Source of the DNA: Xanthobacter autotrophicus
GTDB taxonomy: Bacteria; Pseudomonadota; Alphaproteobacteria; Rhizobiales; Xanthobacteraceae
Reading direction: 5' to 3'
Assembly: GCF_029991245.1 (NCBI RefSeq)
Contig: NZ_JAIVFO010000040.1
Location: 1 to 32,337, forward strand
Length of the DNA: 32,337 bases
Of the stretch, positions 363 through 31,981 are shown in pieces. The notes beneath the pieces were generated by a model. That model did not search any database, was not told the DNA's origin, and saw nothing but the letters and a program-made list of their open reading frames with translations. A program made the position numbers and the translations under genes. Position 1 is the first letter of the stretch; each line of letters opens with the position of its first letter.

Positions 363-373
363 ACGCACCACCC

Positions 374-2133: not shown

Positions 2134-2375
2134 GCGAACGCCCGATCCACCGCGACTTCGCCTCCCGACCTGCCGATCCCGAGCACTGGATCAAGGCGGC
2201 AGATGGCTCGTCCGAACGCCGTCCCGGCGCCGCGTTCACCGCGCGGCTTACCATCGATGTGACGCCCGACCTGCGCGGGCGGATCAAGGTCGCCGCCTTC
2301 CGGCGCGGCGTCACCGTCGCCGAGATGCTGCGCGACCTCCTCGCGCGCGAATTCCCTCCCCAATCTGGAGACTAG
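2130..2375 (+). CDS. Small ribbon-helix-helix-like protein, probable ParA partner
   Basis: An 81-residue protein. Its C-terminal half (FTARLTIDVTPDLRGRIKVA, then a helical segment with GVTVAEMLRDLLAREF) has the strand-helix-helix pattern of Arc/CopG-like proteins. GGAGGT at 2117-2122 precedes ATG 2130. The start overlaps the parA stop by 4 nt. Position directly after parA suggests the centromere-binding or ATPase-stimulating component of a short-ParA system. That role is inferred; the family call rests on pattern only. Confidence 0.75.
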   Translation: MSERPIHRDFASRPADPEHWIKAADGSSERRPGAAFTARLTIDVTPDLRGRIKVAAFRRGVTVAEMLRDLLAREFPPQSGD

Positions 2376-2377
2376 CC

Positions 2378-2899
2378 ATGAGCGCGGCGTTTGCGCCCCG
2401 TGCGGCAAGCACGGCATTCGCACCTGTTCCCCCGTCCGATGCCATGACCCATGTCGAGCTGACCCATATCGAGAAGCGCATCGAGAACTGGATCCGCTTC
2501 GGCCATCACGCGCATGAGCAGCTATTGGATCGCCGCCGGCGCATCCTGTCTTTCCCTCCCGGCTGCATCTTCGCGTTTGTCCGATGGGCGTCGAACGACT
2601 TCGGCACCGTGGCCTCCCGCCTCGACATCGTGCGCTGCGTGGCGCCAGGCGAGAGCTACCAGACGCTGCCCTTCGTGCGGCCCGGTGGCGAGATCCTGCT
2701 GCGGGTGGATGGCTGGCCGAAGGTCGAGAAAATCCTGCAGCACATCGACGCCATTGAGGCGATCGGCATCGATCCGGCCACTGTCGCCCCCGATCATTGG
2801 GGCCATGTCGCGCACCGCACCAGCGTCGGCTTCGAGCCGCGCGCCTACACGATTGAGCGCCATCAGGCGTGGCTGAAGCGGCGGGAGTGCGGACAATGA
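2378..2899 (+). CDS. DUF2840 domain protein
   Basis: A 173-residue protein matching the DUF2840 family commonly found between parA and traF in alphaproteobacterial ICEs. Recognisable stretches are VELTHIEKRIENWIRFG, ILSFPPGCIFAFVRWASND and PGGEILLRVDGWPKVEKIL; the rest is charged and soluble, with no membrane segment. ATG 2378 is preceded by GGAG (2367-2370) seven bases upstream. An in-frame ATG at 2444 would begin exactly at the conserved part, so the first 22 residues may not be translated. The stop overlaps the traF start by 4 nt. The function of the family is unknown; the context ties it to conjugation or maintenance. Confidence 0.85.
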   Translation: MSAAFAPRAASTAFAPVPPSDAMTHVELTHIEKRIENWIRFGHHAHEQLLDRRRRILSFPPGCIFAFVRWASNDFGTVASRLDIVRCVAPGESYQTLPFVRPGGEILLRVDGWPKVEKILQHIDAIEAIGIDPATVAPDHWGHVAHRTSVGFEPRAYTIERHQAWLKRRECGQ

Positions 2900-3441
2900 G
2901 CCGCGCCGCCTATGTGCTGATAACGACCGTCGCCAGCGTCGGTGTGGCCGTCGCCGCCACGCTGCCGACGCCGCTCAAGCTGATCTGGAATGTCTCGGCG
3001 AGCGTTCCTGTCGGGATCTACTCGGTCGAGCCAGCGGATCATCTCGAGATCACCGATTTGGTGGCGGTGATGCCGCCGCCGCCGCTCGCCGCGTTCCTCA
3101 TCGCACGTGGCTATATCGGCGAAGGCACACCGCTGCTGAAGCGTGTGATGGGGCTCCCGGGGCAGGATGTCTGCCGTCTCGGTGAGGCGATTACGGTCGA
3201 TGGCGTGCCGCTGGGCGAAGCGCTGCCGCGCGATCGCTTGGGCCGGGATCTGCCGGTCTGGCAGGGCTGCCGGCGTATCGCTGCCGGTCATCTGTTCCTG
3301 ATGAACCCGGACGTCGGCGACAGTCTCGACGGACGGTATTTCGGACCGATTTCCGGCGGCACCGTCATCGGGCGGGCAATGCCGCTGTTCACGGATGAAG
3401 CCGGCGACGGCGACTTCATCTGGCGCGCGGCTGTACGCTGA
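2896..3441 (+). CDS. traF: TraF, S26-family conjugal transfer peptidase
   Basis: A 181-residue membrane peptidase. It has an N-terminal hydrophobic segment (residues 5-22), the serine motif NVSASVPVGIY with S36 as the likely nucleophile, and the lysine motif LLKRVMGLPGQ with K82 as the likely general base. In RP4, TraF is the peptidase that matures and cyclises the TrbC pilin; a trbC gene is present at 18842. ATG 2896 overlaps the DUF2840 stop and gives a family-like N terminus. The gene is intact, with both catalytic motifs in their usual order. Confidence 0.93.
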   Translation: MSRAAYVLITTVASVGVAVAATLPTPLKLIWNVSASVPVGIYSVEPADHLEITDLVAVMPPPPLAAFLIARGYIGEGTPLLKRVMGLPGQDVCRLGEAITVDGVPLGEALPRDRLGRDLPVWQGCRRIAAGHLFLMNPDVGDSLDGRYFGPISGGTVIGRAMPLFTDEAGDGDFIWRAAVR

Positions 3442-3442
3442 C

Positions 3443-4105
3443 ATGCATCGCGCTGCGCTCTTCCTCGCATCCGGACTGCTGATCGGCGGTGCGTCGCCTG
3501 GCTCTGCCAGCGCGCAACCTATGGCACCAACTGCAGCGTATTCGGTAACGTCCTACGCTGCCTTTATCGACGAGGCTGCGCAGCGCTTCGAGCTTCCGGC
3601 CCGCTGGATCCGTGCGGTCCTGCGGGCCGAAAGCGGAGGCGATCCGCGCGCTGTCTCTCCCGCCGGTGCCATGGGGCTGATGCAGATCGTGCCCGTGACC
3701 TGGGATGAGCTTCGCATCCATCACGGTCTCGGCGCCGATCCGCTCGACCCGCGCGACAACATCCTCGCCGGCGCCGCTTATCTGCGCCAGCTCCATGACC
3801 GCTATGGCAGCATCCGCGCCATGCTCGCGGCCTACAATGCCGGGCCGGCGCGCTATGAGGCGTCGCTTGCCGGCAAGCCGCTGCCGCCAGAGACGCGCAC
3901 TTACATCGCGGCTCTCGCGCCGATCATCGACAAGGAGTCTGCAGCCGGCGCCACCGGACCGGTGCAGCCAATGGCGCAAAGCTGGCGCCACGCGCCGCTG
4001 TTCGCCACGCCGCCCGCGCGCAGCAATCCAGTCGATTCCGGGTTCCTCGCGCCGCGATCGGACGCGCTGTTCGTTGCACCTTTGCCATCGCGGAGGGCGC
4101 CATGA
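3443..4105 (+). CDS. Lytic transglycosylase
   Basis: A 220-residue exported muramidase-like enzyme. A signal peptide (residues 1-24, probable cleavage after ASA) is followed by an SLT domain at about residues 37-150. Visible motifs are VLRAESGGDPRAVSPAGAMGLMQI, with the catalytic glutamate in RAESGGDP, and the AAYNAGP motif. It would open peptidoglycan for assembly of the Trb channel, the VirB1-type role. ATG 3443 follows the traF stop after a single base; no good ribosome binding site is visible, so translational coupling is likely. The C-terminal 70 residues are not conserved. The intergenic oriT candidate follows. Confidence 0.9.
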   Translation: MHRAALFLASGLLIGGASPGSASAQPMAPTAAYSVTSYAAFIDEAAQRFELPARWIRAVLRAESGGDPRAVSPAGAMGLMQIVPVTWDELRIHHGLGADPLDPRDNILAGAAYLRQLHDRYGSIRAMLAAYNAGPARYEASLAGKPLPPETRTYIAALAPIIDKESAAGATGPVQPMAQSWRHAPLFATPPARSNPVDSGFLAPRSDALFVAPLPSRRAP

Positions 4106-4164
4106 GCAGGCGGGGCCGCTTTCGCATGCTGTCGGGCTCTGGCGTTCCGTGGCGAGCAAGACGG

Positions 4165-4247
4165 CGCAGGACAGGAACCACGACCGCACGAGGGCAGGAT
4201 AAAAGAGCGCACATTGCGCGACGGTCGGGATGTTGGTTCTGCCTGCG
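4165..4247. other. oriT: Candidate origin of transfer (oriT), IncP-like
   Basis: The 244-bp gap before the relaxase gene contains GGGCAGGATA at 4192-4201. Its complement, TATCCTGCCC, is the RP4/IncP nic core. The predicted nick is on the minus strand between 4195 and 4194. The site sits between the arms of an imperfect inverted repeat. Positions 4165-4190 read CGCAGGACAGGAACCA and then CGACCGCACG. The complement of 4216-4247 reads CGCAGGCAGAACCA, then a 4-base insert, then CCCGACCGTCGCGC. A second hairpin (7-bp stem, one G-T pair) lies at 4257-4278. With this polarity repA and parA would enter the recipient first and relaxase, traG and trb last. Confidence 0.72.
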
Positions 4248-4349
4248 TTTGCCCGGGGCTTCGGCACCTTGCGGAGCCAAGCCACACATTTCACGCGCCA
4301 CGCAAATGGCTGAAAATCAAAAAATTTCTACACATTGCGAGGCTTCGCC

Positions 4350-6089
4350 ATGAGCGATGAACGCGAGTTCCGCGTCCGTCCCGGCCGCATCCGCTCGACC
4401 CGCGCCCAGCAGGCCCGCCCCTTCGTCGCCCAGGCGCTCGCTGCGGCCCGGAAGGCCGGCGGTGGGGTCTCTCGCTCCGGCAAGATCGCCGCCGGCAACC
4501 GCTCGCGTTTCGGAAGCGGACAGGTCGCCAGCCTTCAGGCCAGCCGCCGGATCACGCCGCTCTCGCGCGGCGCCGTGGTGAAGGCCCGCGTCGTCCGACA
4601 CACGGCCCGCGCGGGCTCCCTCAGTCAGCACCTCACCTATCTTCGCCGCGAGGGCGTCACTCGCGACGGGGAGAAGGCGCGGATGTTCGGTCCCGAGAGC
4701 GACAGCGTGGATGTCGACGCCTTCACCGAGCGCTGCCGCGATGACCGTCACCATTTCCGCTTCATCGTCTCGCCTGACGACGCGTTGGAGATGGAGGACC
4801 TGCGGGTCTTCACCCGTGACCTCACCCGGCAGATGGAGAAGGACCACGGCACCGGGCTCGACTGGGTCGCCGTCGATCACTGGAACACCGAGCATCCCCA
4901 TGTGCATCTGATCGTCCGGGGTCGCCGCGACGATGGCCAGGACCTCGTGATCTCCCGCGACTACATCAGCGAGGGCATGCGCGATCGCGCCCGCGACCTG
5001 ATCACCCAGGAACTCGGCCCGCGCACCGAGCTCGATATCCGCCGGAGTTTGGAACGCCAGATCGAGGCTGAACGCTGGACCATCCTCGACCGCCAGCTTG
5101 TCCGCGAGACCCGAGAGAGCGGCATCATCGACATGGCGCCGGTTCTCGGCCGGCAGCCGGACTACCACCATGCGTTGAAGATCGGGCGTCTGAGAAGGCT
5201 CGAAGCGCTCGGCCTCGCCACTGAGATCGGCAACGCGCAGTGGGTGATTGAGCCGGAAGCGGAAGCCACTCTGCGCGGGCTGGGGGAGCGCGGCGACATT
5301 ATCAAGCGCATGCACCGCGCCCTGACCGAACGCGGTATTGAGCGCGGCACGGCCAGCTACGTCCTTGCCGCCGAGAGCCTCGACGTGCCGGTGATCGGCC
5401 GGCTGGTCGCGCGCGGCCTCGATGATGAGCTCCACGGCTCTGCCTATGCCATCGTCGATGGCGTGGACGGGCGCTCCCATCACATCCGGCTGCCAGATCT
5501 CGATGCCGCCGGTGACGGCGCGGCCGGCTCCATCGTCGAACTTAGGACGTTCGACGATGCCCACGGCAAGCGGCGTGTCGCGCTCGCCGTGCGCTCCGAT
5601 CTGGATATCGCCCATCAGGTGACCGCTACCGGCGCCACCTGGCTCGACCGGCAGGCCATTGCGCGTGACCCCGTTGCTCTTTCGGACGGCGGCTTCGGCG
5701 CGGAGGTGAGCCAGGCACTCGACCGACGCGCCGAGCATCTCGTCCGCGAGGGTCTCGCCGAGCGGCAGGGACGGCGCGTCGTCTTCGCCCGCAACCTCAT
5801 CGACACGCTCCGCCGCCGGGAACTGGACGCCGTAGGCGAAAAGCTCGCCGCCGAGACCGGCTTGGCGTTCAACAAGGCCAGCACCGGCGAGTATGTCGCC
5901 GGCACCTATTGCCAGCGCTTGGTGCTCGCGTCCGGTCGCTTCGCCATGGTCGATGACGGGCTCGGCTTCCAGCTCGTGGCCTGGTCGCCCTCTCTGGAGC
6001 GCGAGCTCGGCAAGCATGTCTCCGGCGTCGCCCGTGACGATGGTGGCGTCGACTGGAGCTTCGGTCGCAAGCGCGGCCTCGGCCTCTGA
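4350..6089 (+). CDS. Conjugative relaxase, VirD2-like with DUF3363
   Basis: A 579-residue relaxase of the MOBP type. The three-histidine motif HWNTEHPHVHL lies at residues 177-187. The region around HLTYLRREGV (residues 94-103) carries Y97, a candidate nucleophile. The C-terminal half matches the DUF3363 region of ICE relaxases. The enzyme should nick oriT, stay bound to the 5' end and be delivered through TraG and the Trb channel. ATG 4350 is chosen with GCGAGG just upstream; a TTG at 4335 is possible. The 244-bp upstream gap with the oriT candidate also separates it from the repA-traF operon, so it may have its own promoter. traG follows after 18 bases. Confidence 0.9.
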   Translation: MSDEREFRVRPGRIRSTRAQQARPFVAQALAAARKAGGGVSRSGKIAAGNRSRFGSGQVASLQASRRITPLSRGAVVKARVVRHTARAGSLSQHLTYLRREGVTRDGEKARMFGPESDSVDVDAFTERCRDDRHHFRFIVSPDDALEMEDLRVFTRDLTRQMEKDHGTGLDWVAVDHWNTEHPHVHLIVRGRRDDGQDLVISRDYISEGMRDRARDLITQELGPRTELDIRRSLERQIEAERWTILDRQLVRETRESGIIDMAPVLGRQPDYHHALKIGRLRRLEALGLATEIGNAQWVIEPEAEATLRGLGERGDIIKRMHRALTERGIERGTASYVLAAESLDVPVIGRLVARGLDDELHGSAYAIVDGVDGRSHHIRLPDLDAAGDGAAGSIVELRTFDDAHGKRRVALAVRSDLDIAHQVTATGATWLDRQAIARDPVALSDGGFGAEVSQALDRRAEHLVREGLAERQGRRVVFARNLIDTLRRRELDAVGEKLAAETGLAFNKASTGEYVAGTYCQRLVLASGRFAMVDDGLGFQLVAWSPSLERELGKHVSGVARDDGGVDWSFGRKRGLGL

Positions 6090-6107
6090 CCCGAGAAAAG
6101 GACCACC

Positions 6108-8099
6108 ATGTCGGCGACGAAAATCCTCTGGGGGCAGATCTTCACCGTCCTGCTCATCGTGCTGGCGGCTATCTCGGGCGCCACACAATATGTGGCCTGG
6201 AGCCTCGGCTATCAGGCGCAGCTCGGCGCGCCGTGGTTCGCGCTTCTCGGGCTGCCGATCTACTACCCGCCGGCCTTCTTCTGGTGGTGGTATTTTTTCG
6301 ATGCCTATGCGCCGGAGGTGTTTTTCCGGGGGGCGCTGATCGCCGCCTCCGGCGGCTTCCTCTCCATCGCGGTCGCCATAGCCCTGTCGGTCTCGCGGGC
6401 GCGGGAGGCCTCCAGAGTCGAGACCTATGGTTCAGCGCGCTGGGCCGAAAGGGAGGAAGTCCGGTCTGCCGGGCTCCTCGGCACGGATGGCGTCGTGCTC
6501 GGCCGGTATGAACGGGACTATCTGCGTCATGATGGGCCCGAGCATGTGCTGTGCTTCGCGCCAACCAGGTCCGGCAAGGGCGTCGGCTTGGTCGTGCCCT
6601 CGCTGCTGACCTGGCCGGGATCGGCCATCGTCCACGATATCAAGGGCGAGAACTGGCAACTCACCGCCGGCTTCCGGGCCCGACATGGCCGCGTGCTGCT
6701 GTTCGACCCGACCAACGCCAAGTCCGCCGCCTACAACCCTCTGCTTGAGGTGCGCCACGGCGAATGGGAAGTGCGTGACGTCCAGAATATCGCCGACATC
6801 CTGGTAGATCCCGAAGGCTCCCTGGAAAAGCGAAACCACTGGGAGAAGACCAGCCACGCGCTGCTGGTCGGCGCCATCCTCCACGTGCTCTATGCCGAGA
6901 CGGACAAGACGCTCGCCGGCGTCGCGGCCTTCCTCTCCGATCCGAAGCGGCCGATCGAGACGACGCTCGACGCCATGATGAAGACCGGGCATCTCGGCGA
7001 GGCTGGCCCGCATCCCGTCATCGCCAGCGCCGCCCGTGAGTTGCTGAACAAATCCGACAATGAGCGCTCGGGCGTGCTCTCCACCGCCATGTCCTTCCTC
7101 GGCCTGTACCGCGATCCGGTGATCGCCGAGGTGACGCGGCGCTGCGACTGGCGCATCGCCGATATCGTCGGCGGCAAGCAACCGTCGACGCTCTACCTCG
7201 TGGTGCCGCCCTCCGACATCAACCGCACCAAGCCGCTGATCCGCCTGCTCCTCAACCAGATCGGTCGGCGCCTCACGGAAGACCTGCAGGCGAAGGGTGG
7301 GCGCCATCGTCTGCTGCTCATGCTCGACGAGTTCCCCGCGCTCGGCCGGCTCGACTTCTTTGAATCGGCGCTCGCCTTCATGGCCGGCTATGGCCTGAAA
7401 GCCTTCCTCATCGCCCAGTCTCTGAACCAGATCGAGAAGGCCTATGGGCCGAACAACTCGATCCTCGACAATTGCCATGTCCGCGTGAGCTTCGCCACGA
7501 ACGACGAGCGCACCGCCAAGCGCGTCTCCGATGCGCTCGGCACCGCCACCGAGATGAAGGCGATGAAGAACTATGCCGGCCACCGTCTCTCGCCTTGGCT
7601 CGGTCATCTCATGGTGTCGCGATCGGAAACTGCCCGTCCGCTGCTCACCCCTGGCGAGGTCATGCAACTGCTGCCCACGGACGAGATCGTCATGGTCGCC
7701 GGCACCCCGCCGATCCGGGCGAAGAAGGCCCGCTACTATGAGGATACACGCTTCCGGGACCGGGTCCTGCCGCCGCCAACGCCCTCTCGTGGTTCGACCG
7801 TCCGGCACGATGATTGGACCACGCTGCCGTTGCCAAGGCCACAGGAGGCAACGGGCGGGAGCCTCGCCGTCGACGGTCGCGACGATGACCCGACCGGCTC
7901 CGAGCACCGGCATCAGCCCGAGCTCAGCCGCGTGAAACCGCTCGAGAAAAGCCAACCCATCGAGAATGAGTTCGAGTTCGACACGGATCGCGACGACGAG
8001 ATGGAGGACGTCGCCACCCGGAACCGGCGCATGACTGGCCTGATGCAAGGCGTGGCTCGACAGGTCAGCCTCGATCCCAATGACGGCATGGAGCTCTGA
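6108..8099 (+). CDS. traG: TraG/VirD4 type IV coupling protein
   Basis: A 663-residue inner-membrane ATPase that couples the relaxosome to the mating channel. Membrane segments lie at about residues 10-32 and 75-95. The Walker A APTRSGKGVG is at residues 151-160 and the Walker B LLLMLDEFPALG is near residue 405. The AQSLNQIEKAYG segment follows, as is typical of TraG/VirD4. The last 110 residues are acidic and variable. A purine-rich AAAAGGA sequence lies just upstream of ATG 6108. It is full-length and uninterrupted. The next gene starts 5 bases after its stop. Confidence 0.95.
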   Translation: MSATKILWGQIFTVLLIVLAAISGATQYVAWSLGYQAQLGAPWFALLGLPIYYPPAFFWWWYFFDAYAPEVFFRGALIAASGGFLSIAVAIALSVSRAREASRVETYGSARWAEREEVRSAGLLGTDGVVLGRYERDYLRHDGPEHVLCFAPTRSGKGVGLVVPSLLTWPGSAIVHDIKGENWQLTAGFRARHGRVLLFDPTNAKSAAYNPLLEVRHGEWEVRDVQNIADILVDPEGSLEKRNHWEKTSHALLVGAILHVLYAETDKTLAGVAAFLSDPKRPIETTLDAMMKTGHLGEAGPHPVIASAARELLNKSDNERSGVLSTAMSFLGLYRDPVIAEVTRRCDWRIADIVGGKQPSTLYLVVPPSDINRTKPLIRLLLNQIGRRLTEDLQAKGGRHRLLLMLDEFPALGRLDFFESALAFMAGYGLKAFLIAQSLNQIEKAYGPNNSILDNCHVRVSFATNDERTAKRVSDALGTATEMKAMKNYAGHRLSPWLGHLMVSRSETARPLLTPGEVMQLLPTDEIVMVAGTPPIRAKKARYYEDTRFRDRVLPPPTPSRGSTVRHDDWTTLPLPRPQEATGGSLAVDGRDDDPTGSEHRHQPELSRVKPLEKSQPIENEFEFDTDRDDEMEDVATRNRRMTGLMQGVARQVSLDPNDGMEL

Positions 8100-8724: not shown

Positions 8725-10347
8725 TCACTCTGCCCCTGGAAGGGGGGGCAGACCCAACTCCTTAAGAAAAGCGTTGTGCTTCGCCGTCGACGCCCGGATT
8801 TGGTTCTCGATATCCACCAACTCGATTTGCGTAGCTGCCAGATCGATCTCCTCCTCACCGACAGCGGTGCTGATGTAGCGAGAGATGTTTAAATTATAGC
8901 CCTCCTCAGCAATTCTCTCCATGCTGACGCGCTTGGAATAGCGGTCCTCTTCCTTTCGGAACTGGTAGGCCTCGAGGATCTTGGCGATATGCTCGTCCGT
9001 GAGCTGGTTCTGGCGCTTGCCTTTCGCAAAGTGCTCTGCCGCGTTTATAAAGAGCACATCATCCGATTTCTTACATTTCTTGAGCACAAGGATGCAGACT
9101 GGGATCCCGGTCGAGTAGAACAAGTTGGCGGGCAAGCCGATGACCGTGTCGATATGACCGTCGTTCAGCAGCTTGGTGCGGATGCGTTCTTCGGCACCAC
9201 CCCGGAACAGGGCGCCGTGGGGCAGGATGATGGCCATCACGCCGTCATCCTTCAGATAGTGAAGTCCGTGTAGGAGGAAGGCGAAGTCGGCGGCCGACTT
9301 GGGCGCCAGCCCGTAGTTCTTGAACCGCACATCGTCGCCCATCGCCTCCGTCGGTTCCCAGCGCAAGCTGAAGGGCGGGTTGGCTACGATGGCCTCGAAG
9401 GAGGGCTTCTTGGCGGGATTCAACTCGCGTAGGATGTCCCAGTCATTGGTCAGCGTGTCACCGTGATAAATCTCGAATTCTGTGTCTTTGACGCCGTGCA
9501 GCAGCATGTTCATGCGCGCGAGGTTATAGGTGGTGATGTTCTTTTCCTGCCCGTAAATTCTGCCGATGCCGTGCGGTCCCATGCGCTTGCGCACGTTCAG
9601 CAGCAGCGAACCAGAGCCGCACGCGAAATCAAACACGCTGGCGAGCCGTTCTCTCTTTCCGGTTGCGGGCTCCTGGCTGTCGAGCGTCACGATCGCTGAC
9701 AGGATGTCTGACACCTGCTGCGGGGTATAGAATTCGCCGGCCTTCTTGCCGGAGCCGGCGGCGAATTGGCCGATCAGATACTCGTAGGCGTCGCCCAACG
9801 CATCCACATCGGATGAGAAGTCGGCTAGCCCTTCAGCGATCTTGGTGATGATGGTACAGAGTTTGGCGTTGCGATCTGCATAGGACCGGCCGAGCTTGTC
9901 AGAGCCGAGATTTATTTCCGAGAAAAGGCCACCAAACGTGCTCTGAAACGACTCGTTCTCGATGTATTTGAAGCCCGCCTGCAGAGTGTTCAAGAGTTCG
10001 TCGTTCCGGGTACGCGCCATATGGGCGATGCTGGTCCAGAGGTGTTCCGGCTTGATGATGTAGTGCGCCTTGAGGCGCATCTGCTTCTCAAAAGCCGCAA
10101 CATCATCGGGGTTCTGCGCATACCAGACCGATAGGGGCGAACGCCCGCCATTGCCAATCGCGTTGGGATCGGGGTAGTCGCGCCCCAGCTCCTTCTTCGC
10201 GGCCACCTCGTAATTGTCGGAGAGGTAGCGCAGGAAGAGGAAAGACAGCATGTAGTCGCGGAAATCGTCCGCGTTCATTGCGCCGCGCAGCTGGTCAGCA
10301 ATGTTCCAGAGCGTTTTGCCCAGCTGCTTTTGGATTTGGTCGTTCAT
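8725..10347 (-). CDS. hsdM: Type I DNA methyltransferase subunit HsdM
   Basis: A 540-residue N6-adenine methyltransferase. HsdM_N helical domain spans about residues 5-150. The AdoMet motif FDFACGSGSLLL begins at residue 239 and the catalytic NPPF is at residues 323-326. It methylates the HsdS-specified site and is required in the restriction complex. It is the last gene of a minus-strand operon and its start overlaps the PrrC-like gene by 4 nt. Oddity: seven C residues (coding strand) lie ten codons before the stop; one base fewer would extend the frame by about 34 codons to a TAG near 8646. The shorter end (ELGLPPLPGAE) looks natural for the family. Confidence 0.95.
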   Translation of the reverse strand: MNDQIQKQLGKTLWNIADQLRGAMNADDFRDYMLSFLFLRYLSDNYEVAAKKELGRDYPDPNAIGNGGRSPLSVWYAQNPDDVAAFEKQMRLKAHYIIKPEHLWTSIAHMARTRNDELLNTLQAGFKYIENESFQSTFGGLFSEINLGSDKLGRSYADRNAKLCTIITKIAEGLADFSSDVDALGDAYEYLIGQFAAGSGKKAGEFYTPQQVSDILSAIVTLDSQEPATGKRERLASVFDFACGSGSLLLNVRKRMGPHGIGRIYGQEKNITTYNLARMNMLLHGVKDTEFEIYHGDTLTNDWDILRELNPAKKPSFEAIVANPPFSLRWEPTEAMGDDVRFKNYGLAPKSAADFAFLLHGLHYLKDDGVMAIILPHGALFRGGAEERIRTKLLNDGHIDTVIGLPANLFYSTGIPVCILVLKKCKKSDDVLFINAAEHFAKGKRQNQLTDEHIAKILEAYQFRKEEDRYSKRVSMERIAEEGYNLNISRYISTAVGEEEIDLAATQIELVDIENQIRASTAKHNAFLKELGLPPLPGAE

Positions 10348-11564
10348 TGTGCAGGTGCTTCCTCGGGGGCGGGCGCAGGCGCTGGTGTTGCGGGAAGAAT
10401 TCCCGGTAGGGCGAACTCAAACCGCGTGATGAATTCGCGCAGAATGCGACGGAAAAGCTCCTTGTTGTCCTCGCCCATTTCCGTGGGTTCGTGGATGGCA
10501 TACGCGCCGTGGCTGAGCAGGTTCAGGGCACGGTTGAACAGCGCCAAGTCATCCTCACTGAGCTTCTTAAGGCAAAAAGCAATGCTCCGATGCCCGAAGA
10601 AGGACGCCGTTTTCTCCATGACACTGCGCAGGGCGTTGAAATGGAAGGTGTAGAGCTTTCCCTTGGCGGGATCGGCGGCATGCTGCAATTCCGCCAAAGT
10701 GGCGACGTGGTGGAAGAAGGGGGTGTCGTCGGTGGCCTGAAGCGTGTAGGCACCGTCTCCGTCCGGGCGGTGCAGGAAATAGCGCTTGTGGGTGATCCTT
10801 GGCTCGCCGTCGATTCGCCTGCCGAACTCGTTGCACATCACGTTGAAAAACAAGGAGTGATGCGAAGAAAAGATCACTTTGATCGGCGCAGGCACACCCG
10901 CACCATCTTTCCGCGTCGTCGCCCGACGAAGGAGTTTCGCCAGATCGCAGGCGACGGAGATCGCGTTGTTGTCATCGAGCGATGAGATCGGATCGTCGAT
11001 ATAGAGGTACTTCTTTCCCTGATAGGATTCATGACCGTCGAGCATGCGCTCACAGATCGCCATGAAAACGCACCAGATGAAGATGTTCTGCTCGCCGCGC
11101 GACACCTTGATGTTGGTCTCGTCGCCCTTTCGGAAACTCACGTAGTCCGGCTTGGAGACAGTCCCGTTTTCTGCGGGAAGCTCCTTGTAGGTGAAGTCAA
11201 ATTCAAAGTCGGCATAGCGAAAGAGGTACTGGGCAATTGTTTCGTCCAGCGCGAGTTCGGTCATCGCGTTGAAGAAGGACGACTTGTCGTTCAGTTGCAG
11301 GCGGCGCACGCTGTCGCCTTCGAGGTCGTTTTCCCAGACGAACAGATCCTCGGTGAAGGCGTTGAAATAGAGCGTGTCGGGGGTGCCGGTGGGGTTCTTC
11401 GTCTTATGCTTGCGCTTGCCTGCGTCCTTGAACTCCATCGACAGGCGCGTCTTGCCGGTGCGGTTATAGGCAAAAATCAATAGCAGCGAGACCGGCTTCG
11501 TGGGGTTGTTGAGATCGTCACGAAGCCGGGCCACCAGCGACCTCAAGTTATTGTATTTACTCAT
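10344..11564 (-). CDS. PrrC-like ABC-ATPase, candidate anticodon nuclease
   Basis: A 406-residue protein lying between hsdS and hsdM, with 4-nt overlaps on both sides. N-terminal ABC-type ATPase: Walker A AYNRTGKT (residues 32-39, alanine in place of the usual first glycine), signature-like VSRGEQNIF (154-162), Walker B/D-loop YLYIDDPISSLDD (186-198), and an H-loop candidate SSHH (233-236). The C-terminal region has R313, E317 and H352. Known: E. coli PrrC, about 396 residues, sits in a type I restriction locus and cuts tRNA-Lys using Arg320, Glu324 and His356. The same R-x3-E spacing and a similar distance to the histidine suggest the same activity. ATP-hydrolysing guard function and tRNA target are inferred. 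The main alternative is a non-nuclease AAA protein of the restriction locus. Confidence 0.78.
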   Translation of the reverse strand: MSKYNNLRSLVARLRDDLNNPTKPVSLLLIFAYNRTGKTRLSMEFKDAGKRKHKTKNPTGTPDTLYFNAFTEDLFVWENDLEGDSVRRLQLNDKSSFFNAMTELALDETIAQYLFRYADFEFDFTYKELPAENGTVSKPDYVSFRKGDETNIKVSRGEQNIFIWCVFMAICERMLDGHESYQGKKYLYIDDPISSLDDNNAISVACDLAKLLRRATTRKDGAGVPAPIKVIFSSHHSLFFNVMCNEFGRRIDGEPRITHKRYFLHRPDGDGAYTLQATDDTPFFHHVATLAELQHAADPAKGKLYTFHFNALRSVMEKTASFFGHRSIAFCLKKLSEDDLALFNRALNLLSHGAYAIHEPTEMGEDNKELFRRILREFITRFEFALPGILPATPAPAPAPEEAPAQ

Positions 11565-12850
11565 ACTTCGGCCTCCCCAATGGATGGGAAGAGCAGCTGC
11601 ATCAGCCCCTTCTTGTGGGTCTTGAGGGTGTCGAGCCTTCGGCTCTCGGCGGCGATGAGGTCGTCGAGGGAGGTGAGGCAGTCTGCGATGCGCTGTTGTT
11701 CGCGGGGCGATGGCAGTAGCATCTCAACTTTAACAAGGTCCGACTTCTTTACGTGGACGAACGAAGCTTTGAACCCATGCGTCCTTCTTGCAATTTCTTC
11801 TTCAACCTTCGCAAGAACCAGTAACGCGAACTGTAATGTGACCTGCTGATCATCCATCAGCACCTTGAAAATATGCTGATTCAAGACGCCAGACGGGCCA
11901 TTCCAAATACGAGCACCGAAAGACGAACCCAGCGTTCCAGACCAAGCAAATAGTAAATCTCCTGGTTCGACGCGGTTTCGTTCTGGCACTGGCTCTTGGG
12001 AGTAATTGAACTCAGCGGACGGGTCGTTCAGATTCTGGATGCGGATGATTGGAGTCCCGCTCGTTTGCCAATCCTCGGGCTTGAAGGCGCATCCGTTAAT
12101 GAGGCTAAACATCTCTTCAATTGTCCGAACTTCCCACTCCCCCGCCTCGCGAAACTCGGGGAAGCGGAGGCGCGGTTGGGTTTCGCCTTCCTGGGGGAAA
12201 AGCTGCTGCATCAGGCCCTTCTTGTGGGCCTTCAGCGCGTCCACCTTCCGCCCCTGCGCCGCGATCAGCGCGTCTGCAGAAGCCAAACAGTCGGCGATCT
12301 TTTGTTGCTCGAGGAGGGTCGGCGTTGCGATCTCTATTCCAAAGAATGTGTTTTTGCTGATGTTTAGCAAGCCGTTGCTTCGCGCGCCGCTCGTGATGTG
12401 CTTCTTGAGCTGGTTTCCGTGCTGATTCTGCTCAAAGCAGTACTGAAAGAAACCGTTCGAGTAGCCGGCTTTGAGGCGGAAGGCGATGAACACGTTAGGC
12501 GCAGCCACCTGACCCCAGCCTTGCAAGAGGTAAATGCACCCTTGGGGAAATTTTAGCGAATTGCCTTTGTTGAAGACAAAATCACCGTCTCGAACCAGAG
12601 TATAAAGCTGATACTGATTGCCAGAGATATCGCGCCCAAATTTCTCGGCCTGTGGGACGAAACCAATGCCAGCCGAAATGCTTACCGGGGTGAGCTTTTT
12701 TTCGCCAACACGTTCATCAACCGGAACAGATGCCCTTCGTAGGCTCACCGAATTCCATGCTGGAGCATCCTGAAACTCGGGGAAGCGCCGCTTCGGTACC
12801 AAGGCAGACCCACCGCTCGTCGCGGCAGACGATTTCATTTTACTGCTCAT
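11561..12850 (-). CDS. hsdS: Type I restriction specificity subunit HsdS
   Basis: About 429 residues with two target-recognition domains. Each is followed by a conserved helical repeat: EQQKIADCLASADALIAAQ with AHKKGLMQQLFP, and EQQRIADCLTSLDDLIAAE with THKKGLMQLLFP. Each domain is preceded by an RFPEF block. The two repeats are alike at DNA level too (11587-11700 and 12195-12314), which would allow exchange of recognition domains by recombination. The subunit sets the DNA site for HsdM and HsdR. ATG 12850 overlaps the hsdR end by 11 nt; an ATG at 12838 just after the hsdR stop is an alternative. The site recognised cannot be read from sequence. Confidence 0.94.
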   Translation of the reverse strand: MSSKMKSSAATSGGSALVPKRRFPEFQDAPAWNSVSLRRASVPVDERVGEKKLTPVSISAGIGFVPQAEKFGRDISGNQYQLYTLVRDGDFVFNKGNSLKFPQGCIYLLQGWGQVAAPNVFIAFRLKAGYSNGFFQYCFEQNQHGNQLKKHITSGARSNGLLNISKNTFFGIEIATPTLLEQQKIADCLASADALIAAQGRKVDALKAHKKGLMQQLFPQEGETQPRLRFPEFREAGEWEVRTIEEMFSLINGCAFKPEDWQTSGTPIIRIQNLNDPSAEFNYSQEPVPERNRVEPGDLLFAWSGTLGSSFGARIWNGPSGVLNQHIFKVLMDDQQVTLQFALLVLAKVEEEIARRTHGFKASFVHVKKSDLVKVEMLLPSPREQQRIADCLTSLDDLIAAESRRLDTLKTHKKGLMQLLFPSIGEAEV

Positions 12851-15800
12851 AAGCGCTGAGCCCCGAGATTTCACGGCCGCCGGCGCGCTTGAGGAGCAGC
12901 GGCATAAGGTCGGTCATCAAGTCCAGTTCCTTTACCCGACGGGCTTTCCAGTTCAGGCCGAGGGGTTCCATCAGGTCGGTCAGCGCCTCGCCATCAAAGA
13001 TCATCCGTTGCAGGATGCCATCGACGAAGCCATGAAGCGCCTCGGAGGCAAGGTCGTGCTTGCCCGCGATGCCCGCCAGCTCCGCCGCGTTCTTCTCTGC
13101 CTTGAATCGGCTATAGCCCTCGCGGATGGCCTTCTCACTCAGACCCTCACCCGCCTTCAGCGTGGCGATATAGGCGGCGATGTCCTCGCGCTCGTCCATG
13201 AACTTGGCGTCGGACTGGATCAGGCCGATCAGCTCCTCGCGGCTCATCTTCTGCTTGCCGGGGGTCGCCTCGGAATAGCGGGCGATCAGGCCCATGATAT
13301 AGTCGTAGTCGATGACGGCAGAGGCAAAGAGCACGAACTCGAAATCGATCTGGTCGGCCTCCGGGGTCGGCTTGTCCGCACCCTTACCCTGCTGAGCCCG
13401 AAGGCGCTGGGCTGTTTCCAGATAGGCACCGCGGAAACCCAGAAGGCTCTCGCGCGGCAGGACCTGTTCGATCGTGGCGGCGTTTTCCGGAGTCAAGTCG
13501 GTATACTGGTCAAGCTGGGTCTTGAGCCGCTGGACCTCCTTGAAATGCTCGATGAAGGCCGCGCGCGCCGCGTCGCCCTTGAGGTTGGGCACAGCGTCGG
13601 GGGCGCAGTCGAGGCCCTGCGATTTCATGAAGGCGTCGAGCTTCTGCACCGCGCTTTCAAGTTTCTGGATAACCACCGGGGCCTTGTCGACCAGCCAGAT
13701 TTCGCGGGCCTTTTCGGCAGCCGCCTCGCCCGAGAAAAGGGCGATGGCGGTATCGACGGCCGCCTGCTGTTGGCGGAAGTCGAGGATATTCCCATAGGGC
13801 TTGGTGGCGTTCAGCACTCGGTTGGTGCGCGAGAAGGCCTGGATCAGGCCGTGATGCTTCAGATTTTTGTCGACGTAGAGGGTGTTCAGGAACTTGGAGT
13901 CGAAGCCCGTCAGCAACATGTCCACCACGATCGTGATATCGATCTTGTGGTGCGACTGGTTGGGATAAGCCTTCTTCAGATCGGCATCAGGCCACTGCTG
14001 ATCTTTGATGCGCTTCTGCACGTCTTGATAATAGAGGTCGAATTCGCCGATCTTGTGGTTTGTACCGTAGTTGGCGTTGTAGTCCGCGAGGATGGCCTTC
14101 AGGGCCTCCTTCTTCTTTTCAGGTTCAACGGCGTTGTCTTCCTTTTCCTGTGGCAGATCCTCCTGAATCTGCTTCACGTCAGGATCGCCCTCGGCGGGCG
14201 GGGAGAAGACGCACGCGATGTTCAGAGGCCGGAAGCTCGGATCGGCGGCGTGCTTCTCGGCCTGCATGGCCTCGAACAAGGAGTGATACTCGATGGCGTC
14301 ATTGATCGACGACGTGGCAAGCAAGGCGTTGAACCGCCGCTGACCCGTGGCCGCGTCGTGCCTAGTCAGGATCGCCTCGATGATCGCCCGCTTGGCTAGC
14401 GGTTCACCCGGCTTCGGCAGGGATTTGCCCTGCGGCTTGAAGTAGTCGACATGGAAGCGAAGCACGTTTCCGTCTTCGATGGCATGCGTGATCGTGTAGG
14501 TGTGAAGACGCTGCTGGAAGAGGTCTTCCGTCGTCTTCATGCTGGCCTGCGTGTCTTCGATCTTCTGGTGAGCCGCGTTCTGATCGAAGATCGGTGTTCC
14601 GGTGAAGCCAAAGAGCTGCGCACGAGGAAAGAAATCCTTGATGGCCTTGTGGTTCTCGCCGAACTGCGACCGATGGCACTCGTCGAAGATAAAGGCGATG
14701 CGCTTGTCGCGAAGGGGCTCAAGCTGCTCCTTGAAGCTTTTTTTGCCATCCCTTTTCTGCTGCTTGTTACGCTTGCTGTTTTCGTCGAGCGCAAGGCCGA
14801 GTTTCTGGATCGTGCAGACGATGACCTTGTCGGCGTAGTCGTCTGAGAGCAGGCGGCGGACAAGGGATGCAGTGTTGGTGTTTTCCTCAACGCAGCCCTC
14901 CTGGAATTTGTTGAACTCCTCCCGCGTCTGCCGATCGAGATCCTTTCGGTCCACGACGAAGAGGCACTTCTCAATGTCCGGATTGTCCTTCAAAAGCGTT
15001 GATGCCTTGAAGGAAGTCAGCGTCTTGCCGCTGCCTGTGGTGTGCCAGATGTAGCCATTGCCGCAGTCTTGCGCGATGGAGTCGACAATCGCCTTCACCG
15101 CGTAGATCTGATAGGGACGCATCATCAGGAGCTTTTGCTCACTTGCGACCAGAACCATGTAGCGGCTGATTGTCTGGCCGAGCGTGCACTTCGCGAGAAA
15201 GCCTTCGGCAAAGCTGTCGAGATGGACAATCTTCTTATTGTCTACATCCGCGAATTCATATGCCGGCAGAAAACGCTCCTCCGCATTGAAGGCGAAGTGA
15301 CGAGAATTGTTGTTCGCGAAATAGAACGTTCGATCTCGATTGCTGACAATGAAGAGCTGTAGAAAACACAATATCGTTTTGGTATAGCCGTTTCCAGGGT
15401 CGTTCTTGTATTCGACAATCTGCTCCATCGCCCGACGAGGGCTAATGCCGAGGGTCTTCAGTTCAATCTGAACAACCGGCACACCGTTGATCAGCAAAAT
15501 TACATCGTACCGATGATGGCTATTGTCCGTGTTGATGCGGAGCTGATTGACCACCTCAAAATAATTTTTGCACCAGTCCTTGATGTTGACGAGGGTGTAG
15601 TTGAGCGGCGTGCCGTCATCACGGGTAAAGCTGTTGCGCTCGCGAAGGGTGCGGGCAGCAGTGAAGACATCCGGCGTGACGATCTCGTCTATCAGGCGCG
15701 CGAATTCGGAGTCAGTGAGGCTGACGCGATTAAGCGCCTCGAATTTCGTACGGAAATTCTGCTCCAGAGAGGCGCGGTCGCGAATGTCCGGACGATACTC

Positions 15801-15869
15801 ATATTTGAGATCGCGGAGCTTGTTGACCAAGGTCGCTTCTAGATCGCGCTCGGGTGTGACCATTGCCAT
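12840..15869 (-). CDS. hsdR: Type I restriction endonuclease subunit HsdR
   Basis: A 1009-residue motor-nuclease of the EcoR124I-like (type IC) kind. The PD-(D/E)xK nuclease reads D122-x13-E136-x-K138 (in YDVILLINGVPVVQIELKT), the same spacing as in EcoR124I. Superfamily 2 helicase motifs follow: TTGSGKT (277-283), DECH (396-399) and TGTP (423-426). Near the C terminus are the helical regions that contact the methylase. It translocates and cleaves unmodified DNA. The gene is intact, lies 9 nt after the phd-like gene and overlaps hsdS. The operon order R-S-(PrrC-like)-M differs from the E. coli prr order M-S-PrrC-R. Confidence 0.96.
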   Translation of the reverse strand: MAMVTPERDLEATLVNKLRDLKYEYRPDIRDRASLEQNFRTKFEALNRVSLTDSEFARLIDEIVTPDVFTAARTLRERNSFTRDDGTPLNYTLVNIKDWCKNYFEVVNQLRINTDNSHHRYDVILLINGVPVVQIELKTLGISPRRAMEQIVEYKNDPGNGYTKTILCFLQLFIVSNRDRTFYFANNNSRHFAFNAEERFLPAYEFADVDNKKIVHLDSFAEGFLAKCTLGQTISRYMVLVASEQKLLMMRPYQIYAVKAIVDSIAQDCGNGYIWHTTGSGKTLTSFKASTLLKDNPDIEKCLFVVDRKDLDRQTREEFNKFQEGCVEENTNTASLVRRLLSDDYADKVIVCTIQKLGLALDENSKRNKQQKRDGKKSFKEQLEPLRDKRIAFIFDECHRSQFGENHKAIKDFFPRAQLFGFTGTPIFDQNAAHQKIEDTQASMKTTEDLFQQRLHTYTITHAIEDGNVLRFHVDYFKPQGKSLPKPGEPLAKRAIIEAILTRHDAATGQRRFNALLATSSINDAIEYHSLFEAMQAEKHAADPSFRPLNIACVFSPPAEGDPDVKQIQEDLPQEKEDNAVEPEKKKEALKAILADYNANYGTNHKIGEFDLYYQDVQKRIKDQQWPDADLKKAYPNQSHHKIDITIVVDMLLTGFDSKFLNTLYVDKNLKHHGLIQAFSRTNRVLNATKPYGNILDFRQQQAAVDTAIALFSGEAAAEKAREIWLVDKAPVVIQKLESAVQKLDAFMKSQGLDCAPDAVPNLKGDAARAAFIEHFKEVQRLKTQLDQYTDLTPENAATIEQVLPRESLLGFRGAYLETAQRLRAQQGKGADKPTPEADQIDFEFVLFASAVIDYDYIMGLIARYSEATPGKQKMSREELIGLIQSDAKFMDEREDIAAYIATLKAGEGLSEKAIREGYSRFKAEKNAAELAGIAGKHDLASEALHGFVDGILQRMIFDGEALTDLMEPLGLNWKARRVKELDLMTDLMPLLLKRAGGREISGLSAYEQ

Positions 15870-15878
15870 AAATGCAAC

Positions 15879-16097
15879 TCAGTTCTCTTCAGTGCCGGTT
15901 GGATGGGTTGCCTTGCTCTTGGTCAAATTCCTGTCCTCGCCACCCACGTCGCCGACCTTCAATCTCTCGTATTCCTCAACTGCCATCACCACCACGACTG
16001 GTCGACCATGCTTAGCGACCAACACCGGTTCAGCGCGAGCCATGTCGATCAGTCGGCCGAAGCCATACTTCGCGTCTTTCGCGCTCAGAGTTTTCAT
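15879..16097 (-). CDS. Phd/YefM-family antitoxin-like regulator
   Basis: A 72-residue protein with the Phd/YefM fold pattern: LSAKDAKYGFGRLIDMARAEPVLVAKHGRPVVVVMAVEEYERL at residues 4-46, then a short charged tail. Family members bind operator DNA through the N terminus and neutralise a toxin with the C terminus. No Doc, YoeB or other small toxin gene is adjacent; hsdR starts 9 nt downstream. It is therefore probably the first cistron of the hsd operon and may act as its autorepressor (inference). ATG 16097 gives the standard MKTLSAKDAK start; the longer frame from 16136 would add 13 atypical residues and run into the palindrome. Confidence 0.85.
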   Translation of the reverse strand: MKTLSAKDAKYGFGRLIDMARAEPVLVAKHGRPVVVVMAVEEYERLKVGDVGGEDRNLTKSKATHPTGTEEN

Positions 16098-16418: not shown

Positions 16419-17534
16419 CTATCCGCGCGCACCCTGCAGGTTCAGCTGGTAGCGCGTATACCGGCGTTCCCCGGTTCGCGTCAGGGCGCCTTTTTCCACC
16501 AGATCGTGCAGGTCGCGCGTGGCGGTGGGGCGGGAGGTGCCGGTGATCGCGAGGTAGTTCTCCGCGCTCAGGCCGCCCGTGAAGCCGCCAGGGCCCTCAC
16601 GGAAGAGACGGGCGATCACCTTTTCCTGCCGTTCGTTCAGCTTGTCGCGGAAGCGATCGTAAAAATGCGCCTTGGCGATGTGGAAAGCCACGCGGCCAAG
16701 TGTCGTCTGCTGGGCCGCGATGATCGTTTCCGCGAAATAGACCAGCCAGCCCGTGACATCGAGCGTCCGCTGATGGACCTCGAGCTGATCGTAATAGGCC
16801 TTGCGATGCTGCTCGATGGTATGGGCGAGCGCGATCAGCGTCGGCTGCCCGATGTTCTGGGCGAGGGATTTTTCCGCCAGCGTTCGCCCAATGCGACCGT
16901 TGCCGTCCTCGAAGGGATGGATGCTCTCGAAATAGAGATGTCCGATCCCGGCCCGGGTGAGTGCGGGCAAGGGCGTTTCACCGTCGGTGGCCGAGCCATT
17001 GAACCAGGTGAGATAGGCGGCCATCTCGTCCGGAACCTGCGAGGATGGCGGCGCCTCGAAATGCACGGTCGGCCGATCCTGGCGGCCGGACACGATCTGC
17101 ATTGCCTCTTCATGGCGACGGTAGCCGCCGATCATCTCCAGATGCCGGCTGTCCGCCATCAGCATGCGGTGCCAGCGGAACAGCGTGTCGGCGTCGAGAG
17201 GGTCCGCCCAGCTCCGGTAGAGATCCACCATCATCTCCGCGATGCCGCGCTCTTTCGGCTTCACGTTGCGATTGTCGGTATCGAGGCCGAGCTGACGGCG
17301 CAGGGAGGATTGCACGCTGAGGCGATCCAGCGTCTCCCCTTCGATCGCGCTGGTCTTGACGGCCTCGTCACTGAGGAGTTCGATCCGCAGCAGCTCCCGC
17401 TCGTCATCGCTCACATGCCGGACCGCACCGATCACCTCGCCGGTGAGCAGCAGGAACCTCCGCTCCAGCGGTTCGAGGGCAACCGGATCATAGGCAAAAT
17501 GCGGCCAGCCGTGCTGCGTCCAGTTCCACGCCAT
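16419..17534 (-). CDS. Fic-domain protein, class II (DUF4172-Fic)
   Basis: A 371-residue protein. The DUF4172-type N terminus (WNWTQHGWPHFAYD) is followed by the inhibitory helix motif TSAIEG (residues 61-66, fits [S/T]xxxE[G/N]). The Fic core HPFEDGNGRIGR lies at residues 206-217, and a C-terminal winged-helix-like region (about 305-365) contains YLAITGTSRPTATRDLHDLVEKGAL. Fic enzymes transfer AMP or other nucleotides to target proteins; the glutamate of the inhibitory helix restrains activity. All catalytic residues are present. The target is unknown. It is a monocistronic cargo gene; nested inverted repeats overlap its start and promoter, so its own C-terminal DNA-binding domain may regulate it (inference). 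Confidence 0.92.
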   Translation of the reverse strand: MAWNWTQHGWPHFAYDPVALEPLERRFLLLTGEVIGAVRHVSDDERELLRIELLSDEAVKTSAIEGETLDRLSVQSSLRRQLGLDTDNRNVKPKERGIAEMMVDLYRSWADPLDADTLFRWHRMLMADSRHLEMIGGYRRHEEAMQIVSGRQDRPTVHFEAPPSSQVPDEMAAYLTWFNGSATDGETPLPALTRAGIGHLYFESIHPFEDGNGRIGRTLAEKSLAQNIGQPTLIALAHTIEQHRKAYYDQLEVHQRTLDVTGWLVYFAETIIAAQQTTLGRVAFHIAKAHFYDRFRDKLNERQEKVIARLFREGPGGFTGGLSAENYLAITGTSRPTATRDLHDLVEKGALTRTGERRYTRYQLNLQGARG

Positions 17535-17610: not shown

Positions 17611-17873
17611 TAGAGCCGCGCCATTGCGCCCCGCAGGCTGATCGAGCGGCCCCATCCCCATTTCCTGCGCTGGCACAGGGAGCATTGCTTCAAGCCGTGA
17701 AGCGGAGGCTTCCTATGCCGCTTCCGATCACTGCAGCAGTTCCGCCGTTCGCCTGTCATTGCACGCCAGACTGCGACGCGGATCGAATCCTGTTGAACCG
17801 GCCTAATATAGGGCTCTTTTAATCATCCCCACCCGGGATGAGATCGTCAGGACCCCGGCACGTCGGGGTTGGC
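17611..17873. other. Leader region upstream of trbB
   Basis: No supported gene is seen; the frame 17607-17822 has no recognisable features. TAATAT at 17804-17809 is a possible -10 element but no good -35 stands 16-18 bases upstream. Since the cargo genes run in the opposite direction, trb transcription should start here unless it reads through the whole island. A short hairpin (GAAGC/GCTTC) lies at 17699-17712. Confidence 0.4.
17852..17869 (+). promoter_or_regulatory. Hairpin overlapping the trbB ribosome binding region
   Basis: ACCCCG (17852-17857) and CGGGGT (17864-17869) form a 6-bp GC-rich stem with a 6-base loop, ending 4 bases before ATG 17874. The 3' arm contains the G-rich sequence most likely to serve as the ribosome binding site, so translation of trbB could be restrained. 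If translation begins at ATG 17838 instead, the hairpin lies inside the gene. Confidence 0.35.
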
Positions 17874-18845
17874 ATGGCGGCAGCACATCATCATCAGGGT
17901 TTCGCCCGCGGCGCGCGGATGCTGCGCACGGCGCTCGGGACGGCCATCGCCCGGCACTTGGAAGACCCCTCCGTCGTCGAGGTGATGCTGAACCCGGACG
18001 GGCGGCTGTGGATCGACCGACTCGCGGAGGGACTATCCGACACGGGTGAGCGGCTCTTGCCCGCTGACGGCGAGCGCATCGTGCGGCTCGTCGCCCACCA
18101 TGTCGGCGCGGAGGTTCACGCTGGCGCCCCACGTGTTTCAGCCGAGCTGCCCGAGACGGGAGAACGTTTCGAGGGCCTGCTGCCGCCGGTGGTCGCGGCC
18201 CCGACATTTGCCATCCGCAAGCCCGCCGTCGCGGTGTTCACCCTGGAGGACTATGTTCGCGCCGGGATCATGTCCGCCGGACAAGCCGACGCACTGCGCC
18301 AGGGTGTCGCCTCTCGCGCCAATATCCTGGTGGCCGGCGGCACCTCGACGGGCAAGACCACTCTGACCAACGCGCTGCTCGCCGAGGTCGCGAAGACCTC
18401 CGATCGCGTCGTCCTCATTGAAGATACGCGCGAGTTGCAGTGCGCTGCGCCGAACCTCGTCGCCCTGCGCACCAAAGACGGTGTCGCCTCGCTATCGGAC
18501 CTCGTCCGTTCGGCGCTTCGGCTGCGTCCCGACCGCATCCCCATCGGAGAGGTGCGCGGCGCCGAGGCGCTGGACCTATTGAAGGCCTGGGGCACCGGCC
18601 ATCCCGGCGGCATCGGCACCATCCATGCCGGCAGCGCCATCGGCGCGCTGCGGCGGATGGAGCAACTCATCCAGGAAGCCGTCGTCACCGTCCCCCGCAC
18701 GCTGATCGCCGAGACCATCAATCTCGTGGCCGTGCTTGCCGGCCGCGGCGCGGCGCGCCGGCTCACCGAACTCGCTCATGTCGAGGGCCTTGGCCCCGAT
18801 GGCGACTACCGCGTCACCCCTGTCATCACCGGAGATCCCACATGA
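17874..18845 (+). CDS. trbB: TrbB, conjugal transfer ATPase (VirB11-like)
   Basis: A 323-residue hexameric secretion ATPase. Walker [10 protein letters not shown] lies at residues 155-163, with the VirB11-type Asp box ([12 protein letters not shown]), Walker B-like [12 protein letters not shown] and the His box ([12 protein letters not shown]) after it. It would power pilus and channel assembly at the inner membrane. ATG 17874 gives the short N terminus seen in the family; ATG 17838 would add 12 residues. It is the first gene of the trb operon and its stop overlaps trbC by 4 nt. Confidence 0.95.
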
Positions 18846-19443: not shown

Positions 19444-19453
19444 GCGGGGTGCC

Positions 19454-22644: not shown

Positions 22645-22656
22645 CGGGAGGCGAAT

Positions 22657-22926: not shown

Positions 22927-22929
22927 GCC

Positions 22930-27003: not shown

Positions 27004-27005
27004 CC

Positions 27006-31900: not shown

Positions 31901-31981
31901 GATATTGTTCCTGGCCACGACATTGGCTCACGGAATTGCGTAGAAGGTATTTGCGCCAATTGTCAAGTTCGCGACTGGCCC

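Follow-up and report, generated by a model that had tools for sequence, protein, structure and literature searches.

PrrC is a bacterial enzyme that cuts transfer RNA (tRNA) and halts protein synthesis when an infecting virus disables restriction. In this work we analyse a stretch of 32,337 nucleotides (nt) of Xanthobacter autotrophicus (contig NZ_JAIVFO010000040.1, hereafter the window), in which a prrC-type gene lies embedded in a type I restriction-modification (R-M) operon. A previous sequence-only reading of this DNA had suggested a PrrC-like anticodon nuclease at this place, and we conclude, with a probability of about 0.88, that the gene encodes a PrrC-family anticodon nuclease of a lineage that is wired into operons of the order hsdR-hsdS-prrC-hsdM. 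The genes of the operon, transcribed in the order listed from high to low coordinates, are the following:

15879-16097, minus strand: Phd/YefM-type antitoxin-like gene, 72 amino acids (aa), PF02604 at 3.3e-12, ending just ahead of hsdR and probably the first gene of the operon
12840-15869, minus strand: hsdR, restriction subunit, 1009 aa (PADLOC REase_I, 1124.5 bits; EcoR124_C, 7.6e-69)
11561-12874, minus strand: hsdS, specificity subunit, 437 aa from a GTG start, with an in-frame ATG at 12850 (PF01420, 1.8e-20; PADLOC Specificity_I, 8.1e-101)
10344-11564, minus strand: prrC-type gene, 406 aa, with an N-terminal ATP-binding cassette (ABC) ATPase and a C-terminal anticodon nuclease (ribonuclease, RNase) domain
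8725-10347, minus strand: hsdM, methylase subunit, 540 aa (TIGR00497, 393.7 bits against a cut-off of 242.75)

All four large genes are open from end to end, and each of them is recognised by Pfam, NCBIfam or PADLOC. The prrC frame runs through 406 codons with no internal stop, and the tight overlap with both neighbours that had been described earlier is real, as 4 nt (ATGA) can be read from the sequence at the hsdS/prrC and at the prrC/hsdM junctions.

The PADLOC model for PrrC matches residues 5-385 of the protein (E=2.6e-126), and the identical model gives 1.5e-147 for the PrrC of an E. coli plasmid (NZ_CP116245.1, locus L082) and 2.1e-142 for a Klebsiella relative (L156). The L082 protein, which we used as a stand-in for the prototype E. 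coli PrrC, is 396 aa long and carries K46, D287, R320, E324 and H356 at their published numbers. The latter four numbers are given in the consulted parts of PMC2610378 and PMC3014915. Both the PADLOC match and the 32% identity to this E. coli PrrC (366 columns, E=2e-45) bear out the earlier call of a PrrC-like nuclease, and the 406 aa of the window protein fall within the 341-416 aa reported for the family (PMC2610378). Pfam finds an AAA_13 domain (5e-11), and the comparison with five close relatives yields a ratio of nonsynonymous to synonymous divergence (dN/dS) of about 0.07-0.11 (dN 0.045-0.089, dS 0.41-0.95), the mark of purifying selection. Given the PADLOC and AAA_13 matches, the open frame and the low dN/dS, this is not a chance open reading frame (ORF).

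The PrrC proteins sampled here divide into two lineages that are associated with separate R-M families: lineage A, with the gene order hsdM-hsdS-prrC-hsdR, and lineage B, with the order hsdR-hsdS-prrC-hsdM of the window. In an unrooted tree, a single branch of length 1.9 and support 1.0 separates the two exactly, and a value of 0.709 at the lineage-B node of the rerooted printout is taken for a label shifted by the rerooting. The HsdM proteins of lineage A are 76-97% identical to that of L082 and those of lineage B 68-93% identical to that of the window (L001-L080, fragments excluded), the two types sharing 38% identity. Among the 80 loci fetched with the window protein, which are the best 80 of 185 and so an uneven sample made of its best relatives, the order hsdR>hsdS>prrC>hsdM occurs in 66, hsdS>prrC>hsdM in seven (including L065, whose prrC is broken) and prrC>hsdM in five; L078 shows hsdR>hsdS>prrC without hsdM, and L039 shows hsdS>prrC without hsdM and with a weak hsdR match further on. 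Accessory genes break the hsd-prrC order in part of these loci. The position between hsdS and hsdM, which the sequence-only reading had regarded as unusual, is therefore the rule for lineage B. Thirteen lineage-A loci were scored as hsdM>prrC>hsdR, with hsdS unscored because the query was the window HsdS, and the annotation places hsdS in between in the six annotated ones. As prrC comes after hsdS in both lineages, either directly or past an accessory gene, what differs between them is the hsd gene that follows prrC. The gap between hsdS and prrC exceeds 350 nt in eight lineage-B loci (L051, L055, L056, L076, L113, L115, L117 and L119).

Other samples contain both lineages as well. In a more even set of 398 Pseudomonadota genomes, E. 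coli PrrC as the query found matches in 21: eight of lineage A (G082 only as a piece), nine of lineage B (the window included) and four with frames of 741-795 aa, taken from their size for putative RloC-like proteins. With the window protein as query, 12 of 385 genomes of the window's class gave a match, namely four of lineage B (again with the window), four of lineage A and four weak ones (E from 2e-8 to 8e-4). Plasmid searches returned 114 and 113 records with a match, out of which 13 were chosen by hand and fetched. On the IncC/IncA plasmids L083 and L156, a lineage-B prrC occurs in an operon whose hsdR and hsdS are separated by two genes; the annotation of L156 names these a TrlF-type ATPase and an RNA-binding-domain protein.

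Residue counts were taken from an alignment of 105 PrrC proteins, of which 13 belong to lineage A and 92, counting that of the window, to lineage B. L065 was excluded for its broken frame, L122 as a piece of 181 aa, and L123 and L124 as proteins of RloC size; L133 and L120, which repeat the genes of L003 and L014, were dropped as well. The motifs of the window protein are listed in order along the protein:

11448-11471, minus strand: Walker A AYNRTGKT, residues 32-39, aligned with E. coli AFNGTGKT
11322-11366, minus strand: conserved block FNAFTEDLFVWENDL, residues 67-81, a candidate 15-residue 'PrrC box'
11088-11102, minus strand: ABC signature SRGEQ, residues 155-159; S, R, G and E each in 92/92 of lineage B
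10974-11003, minus strand: Walker B / D-loop YIDDPISSLD, residues 188-197; D191, P192, S195 and D197 each in 92/92 of lineage B
10860-10862, minus strand: H-loop (linchpin) histidine H235; 92/92 of lineage B, 13/13 of lineage A
10725-10727, minus strand: D280, counterpart of E. coli D287 (tRNA wobble-base contact); 88/92 of lineage B, 12/13 of lineage A
10626-10628, minus strand: R313 of the RNase triad (E. coli R320); 92/92 of lineage B, 13/13 of lineage A
10614-10616, minus strand: E317 of the RNase triad (E. coli E324); 92/92 of lineage B, 13/13 of lineage A
10530-10532, minus strand: R345 (E. coli R349); 92/92 of lineage B, 13/13 of lineage A
10509-10511, minus strand: H352 of the RNase triad (E. 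coli H356); 91/92 of lineage B (R in L033), 13/13 of lineage A

The window protein thus carries the ABC-ATPase motifs Walker A, signature, Walker B and H-loop. The Walker A lysine K38 is present in 90 of the 92 lineage-B rows, the remaining two having an arginine and a gap. The alanine that opens this motif had been read as a departure from PrrC, but it is normal, because E. coli PrrC has an alanine too; it is found in 13/13 proteins of lineage A and 90/92 of lineage B, the other two being gaps. In the block FNAFTEDLFVWENDL, whose E. coli counterpart is YNAFTEDLFYWDNDL, 11 of the 15 columns are invariant among 53 sequences. On the RNase side, R313-x3-E317 and H352 are exactly the residues that the sequence-only reading had named; they align with the E. 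coli triad, and the conservation across homologs by which that reading proposed to check them is nearly complete, as listed. Moreover, R345-x6-H352 fits the Rx4-6H pattern of HEPN domains, with the arginine in 105/105 rows and the histidine in 104/105. The D287-type wobble contact is kept in a subset of the PrrC family, and its assignment to D280 depends on the alignment, since an earlier one of 83 rows set T278 opposite D287. We favour D280 because the lineage-A proteins with a shortened loop support it once they are added; a loss of the D287 counterpart, as the 83-row alignment had suggested, was then withdrawn.

The AlphaFold2 model of the full-length protein, built with 53 sequences, has a mean predicted local distance difference test score (pLDDT) of 83.6 and a predicted template-modelling score (pTM) of 0.73. 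Its best Foldseek match in the PDB is a Rad50 head (E=2.3e-5), SMC-family heads are among the next, and all eight matches with E<0.001 are ATPase heads. The isolated C-terminal 117 residues also give a helical model (pLDDT 82.2). When lineages A and B were aligned separately and compared with hhalign, their N-terminal parts were related with a probability of 100% (E=1.2e-57) and their C-terminal parts with 99.7% (E=3.4e-25). The relation of the C-terminal domain to PrrC, as earlier proposed, is thus upheld by profiles, although not by a fold match.

Some observations weigh against our assignment, or against parts of it. Among the best 50 of 94 Foldseek matches of the C-terminal model in the PDB, none is better than E=1.6, and Pfam gives no match for this piece at E up to 0.1; the HEPN assignment consequently draws its support from the motif and the family and not from the fold. 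Sequence searches of the PDB found no PrrC structure, and NCBIfam has no match to the window PrrC. Not every prrC copy works, as the matched stretches in G149 and G391 contain stop codons and the L065 gene is broken. Nor is the R-M partner a close one: in a comparison that covered the EcoprrI type (IC, from the L082 locus) and HsdM of type IA, the window HsdM and HsdR are 38% and 33% identical to those of the EcoprrI type, and HsdM is 24% identical to that of E. coli K-12 (IA), with an EcoR124_C domain present in HsdR. Because this partner is not close to EcoprrI, PrrC may be masked and triggered in another way than in E. coli. Finally, the placement in lineage B of PrrC170, the tested Klebsiella system discussed below, rests on gene order and on its 35% identity to E. 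coli PrrC.

Within the hsd operon, prrC occupies an optional slot. The HsdM type of the window, defined at E below 1e-180, occurs in 12 of the 398 and 6 of the 385 genomes, which amount to 16 different genomes; a prrC match is present in 11 of them. In G427 (L163), there is no ORF of at least 150 aa on the operon strand between hsdS and hsdM. In G061 (L165) and G165 (L166), the slot holds a 336-aa ORF, preceded by a 30-residue hsdM-like stretch, whose first 50 residues read like the RhuM-like protein to the eye; the 283-aa slot ORF of G180 (L168) is likewise taken for a DinD-like protein from the look of its sequence. The contig of G701 stops before the hsdS-hsdM slot comes into view. A RhuM-like gene of about 335 aa also stands beside prrC itself in 13 loci (L028, L031, L032, L036, L040, L041, L045, L049, L054, L066, L113, L117 and L119), in the prrC-hsdM gap in ten and in the hsdS-prrC gap in three, and the one locus tested by Pfam gave PF13310 at 4.8e-109. 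RhuM-like and Fic/Doc-like genes next to PrrC or RloC had already been listed by Anantharaman et al. (PMC3710099, consulted in part).

The leader of the operon is variable as well. With the window's Phd-like protein as query, phmmer detects a related ORF 10-152 nt upstream of hsdR, and in the same orientation, in the window itself and in 15 of 76 further lineage-B loci. It gave no such match in the remaining 61 of the 76 nor in any of 14 lineage-A loci (0/14), though remoter Phd genes may be missed. The 76 are those loci in which the start of hsdR is present; L083 lacks upstream sequence, and L120 repeats L014. The Phd-like protein is likely a regulator of the operon. Further upstream by 321 nt, on the strand of the R-M operon, lies a Fic gene, the only nearby candidate for a toxin partner of the Phd-like protein:

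16419-17534, minus strand: complete-looking Fic gene with DUF4172 and Fic domains and the motif HPFEDGNGR (PADLOC SoFic, 7.6e-45)

A TSAIEG stretch in this Fic protein resembles an inhibitory motif. Fic as a conserved partner was rejected, since a Fic match was found in three relatives (L044, L059 and L076), in none of them ahead of hsdR. In the consulted parts of PMC3874165, PMC12707154 and PMC3014915, we came across neither the split into two lineages nor a prr operon headed by a Phd gene, although we do not claim that these points are unpublished.

These data also allow other explanations to be weighed. The protein could belong to the PrrC lineage and cut a different tRNA, or a different site, than E. 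coli PrrC, because the stretch that corresponds to the tRNA-recognition region (E. coli residues 284-294) has changed: it is shorter and altered, TDDTPFFHH versus YGDSNKSFSYH, and a review, in its consulted part, states that substrates may vary with the tRNA-recognition sequence (PMC3014915). However, the wobble-contact aspartate is kept as D280, some lineage-A proteins have an equally shortened loop, and tRNA-Lys is the target of PrrC170, whose genes stand in the order seen here (PMC11555353, in part), so that we regard a changed substrate as rather unlikely. Far less credible is a toxin-antitoxin pair made up of prrC and the Phd-like gene, with PrrC silenced by the Phd-like protein instead of by the R-M complex. 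The Phd-like gene does head the operon in the window and in the loci counted above, but most lineage-B loci and all those of lineage A gave no such match, hsdR and hsdS separate it from prrC, and, as in the Phd-Doc pairing, a Fic-type gene like the one upstream is the more usual partner of Phd.

A decayed copy, or an ABC-ATPase accessory of the R-M system devoid of nuclease activity, would agree with the breadth of the AAA_13 family and with a C-terminal domain that has no fold match. We consider this quite improbable, as the triad and R345 are kept across the 105 sequences except for one histidine, dN/dS is low and the frame has no internal stop. Least plausible of all, in spite of the ABC motifs and R-x3-E...H triad that RloC has in common with the window protein (PMC2610378), is an RloC-type wobble-excising nuclease: RloC proteins have 658-897 aa versus 406, there is no CxxC (zinc hook) anywhere in the window protein, and its model has no long coiled-coil helices. 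The PrrC-family anticodon nuclease remains our preferred reading.

The operon itself sits in a defence block on the opposite strand between the two parts of a conjugation backbone (251-8099 and 17838-27278, plus strand). The first part encodes RepA, ParA, DUF2840, SLT, relaxase-like DUF3363 and TraG-type proteins, and the second T2SSE/TrbB-, TrbC-, TrbE-, TrbL-, VirB8-, CagX-, TrbI- and DUF2274-type ones. A tRNA-Gly(gcc) gene (28439-28513, minus strand), whose 3' end faces the mobile element, is a possible attachment site. Beyond it, a TIR-TM defence gene (31030-31918, minus strand) is present as two ORFs, 31478-31918 (model positions 1-134) and 31030-31467 (145-283), adjoined by a CopG-type antitoxin gene (31982-32242, minus strand; PF12441, 3.5e-32).

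A mechanism for the window system can be proposed by analogy with E. coli PrrC and PrrC170, since it matches the latter in its four genes and in their order, and the host genome carries its own tRNA-Lys(ttt) gene. PrrC would most likely be co-translated with HsdS and HsdM and kept latent on the type I R-M complex. An incoming phage that inhibits the restriction enzyme would free PrrC, or switch it on, through the ABC head driven by nucleoside triphosphates, and the C-terminal HEPN-type RNase would then cut a tRNA in its anticodon loop, probably tRNA-Lys(UUU), so that translation stops. Latency, trigger and tRNA target of the window PrrC are all inferred from those two systems. The two-layer defence envisaged by the sequence-only reading, DNA restriction followed by tRNA cleavage upon its failure, survives the available tests, with tRNA cleavage and R-M control as its analogical parts.

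Taken by itself, the window yields a mostly confirmatory result. In the sampled sequences, the anticodon nucleases that guard R-M systems form two lineages that differ in gene order and in the R-M family to which they are bound, and conjugative elements such as that of the window carry one of them. A broader and tentative hypothesis, which we hold to be possible but by no means probable, is that PrrC settled separately as a guard of two type I R-M families, and that the second family could offer an interchangeable cargo slot (PrrC, RhuM-like, DinD-like or none), fronted in part of the lineage by a Phd-type repressor or antitoxin that sets or senses expression. If this were true, the host would have a plug-in position for second-line effectors watching the restriction enzyme. 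The hsdS-hsdM slot of this R-M family is a simple place to look for further guard effectors.

Compared with known systems, the window PrrC shares with the E. coli PrrC/EcoprrI system (prrABCD) the ABC-ATPase and RNase domains, the triad, the Walker A motif and a prrC directly after hsdS. It differs in that the E. coli order is hsdM-hsdS-prrC-hsdR, as in the L082 locus, which agrees with the review, and in that the E. coli PrrC has a longer tRNA-recognition loop. RloC resembles it in ABC motifs and triad, but is about twice its size, has a coiled-coil/zinc-hook insert that the window protein lacks, and is rarely linked to R-M systems. An occurrence of prrABCD on a Vibrio integrative and conjugative element has been reported (PMC4857294, consulted in part). 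The likeness to PrrC170 of Klebsiella quasipneumoniae lies in the gene order. According to the consulted part of its 2024 description (PMC11555353), this system of HsdR, HsdS, PrrC and HsdM restricts T1 and T7, expression of its PrrC arrests growth, tRNA sequencing points to tRNA-Lys as the target, and its PrrC is 35% identical to that of E. coli (32% for the window). A K. quasipneumoniae plasmid relative (L156), which may or may not be PrrC170, is 47% identical to the window PrrC. The kind of system is thus known, and the order hsdR-hsdS-prrC-hsdM has already been tested in another species, so that the window prrC illustrates a known defence well and does not add a new one.

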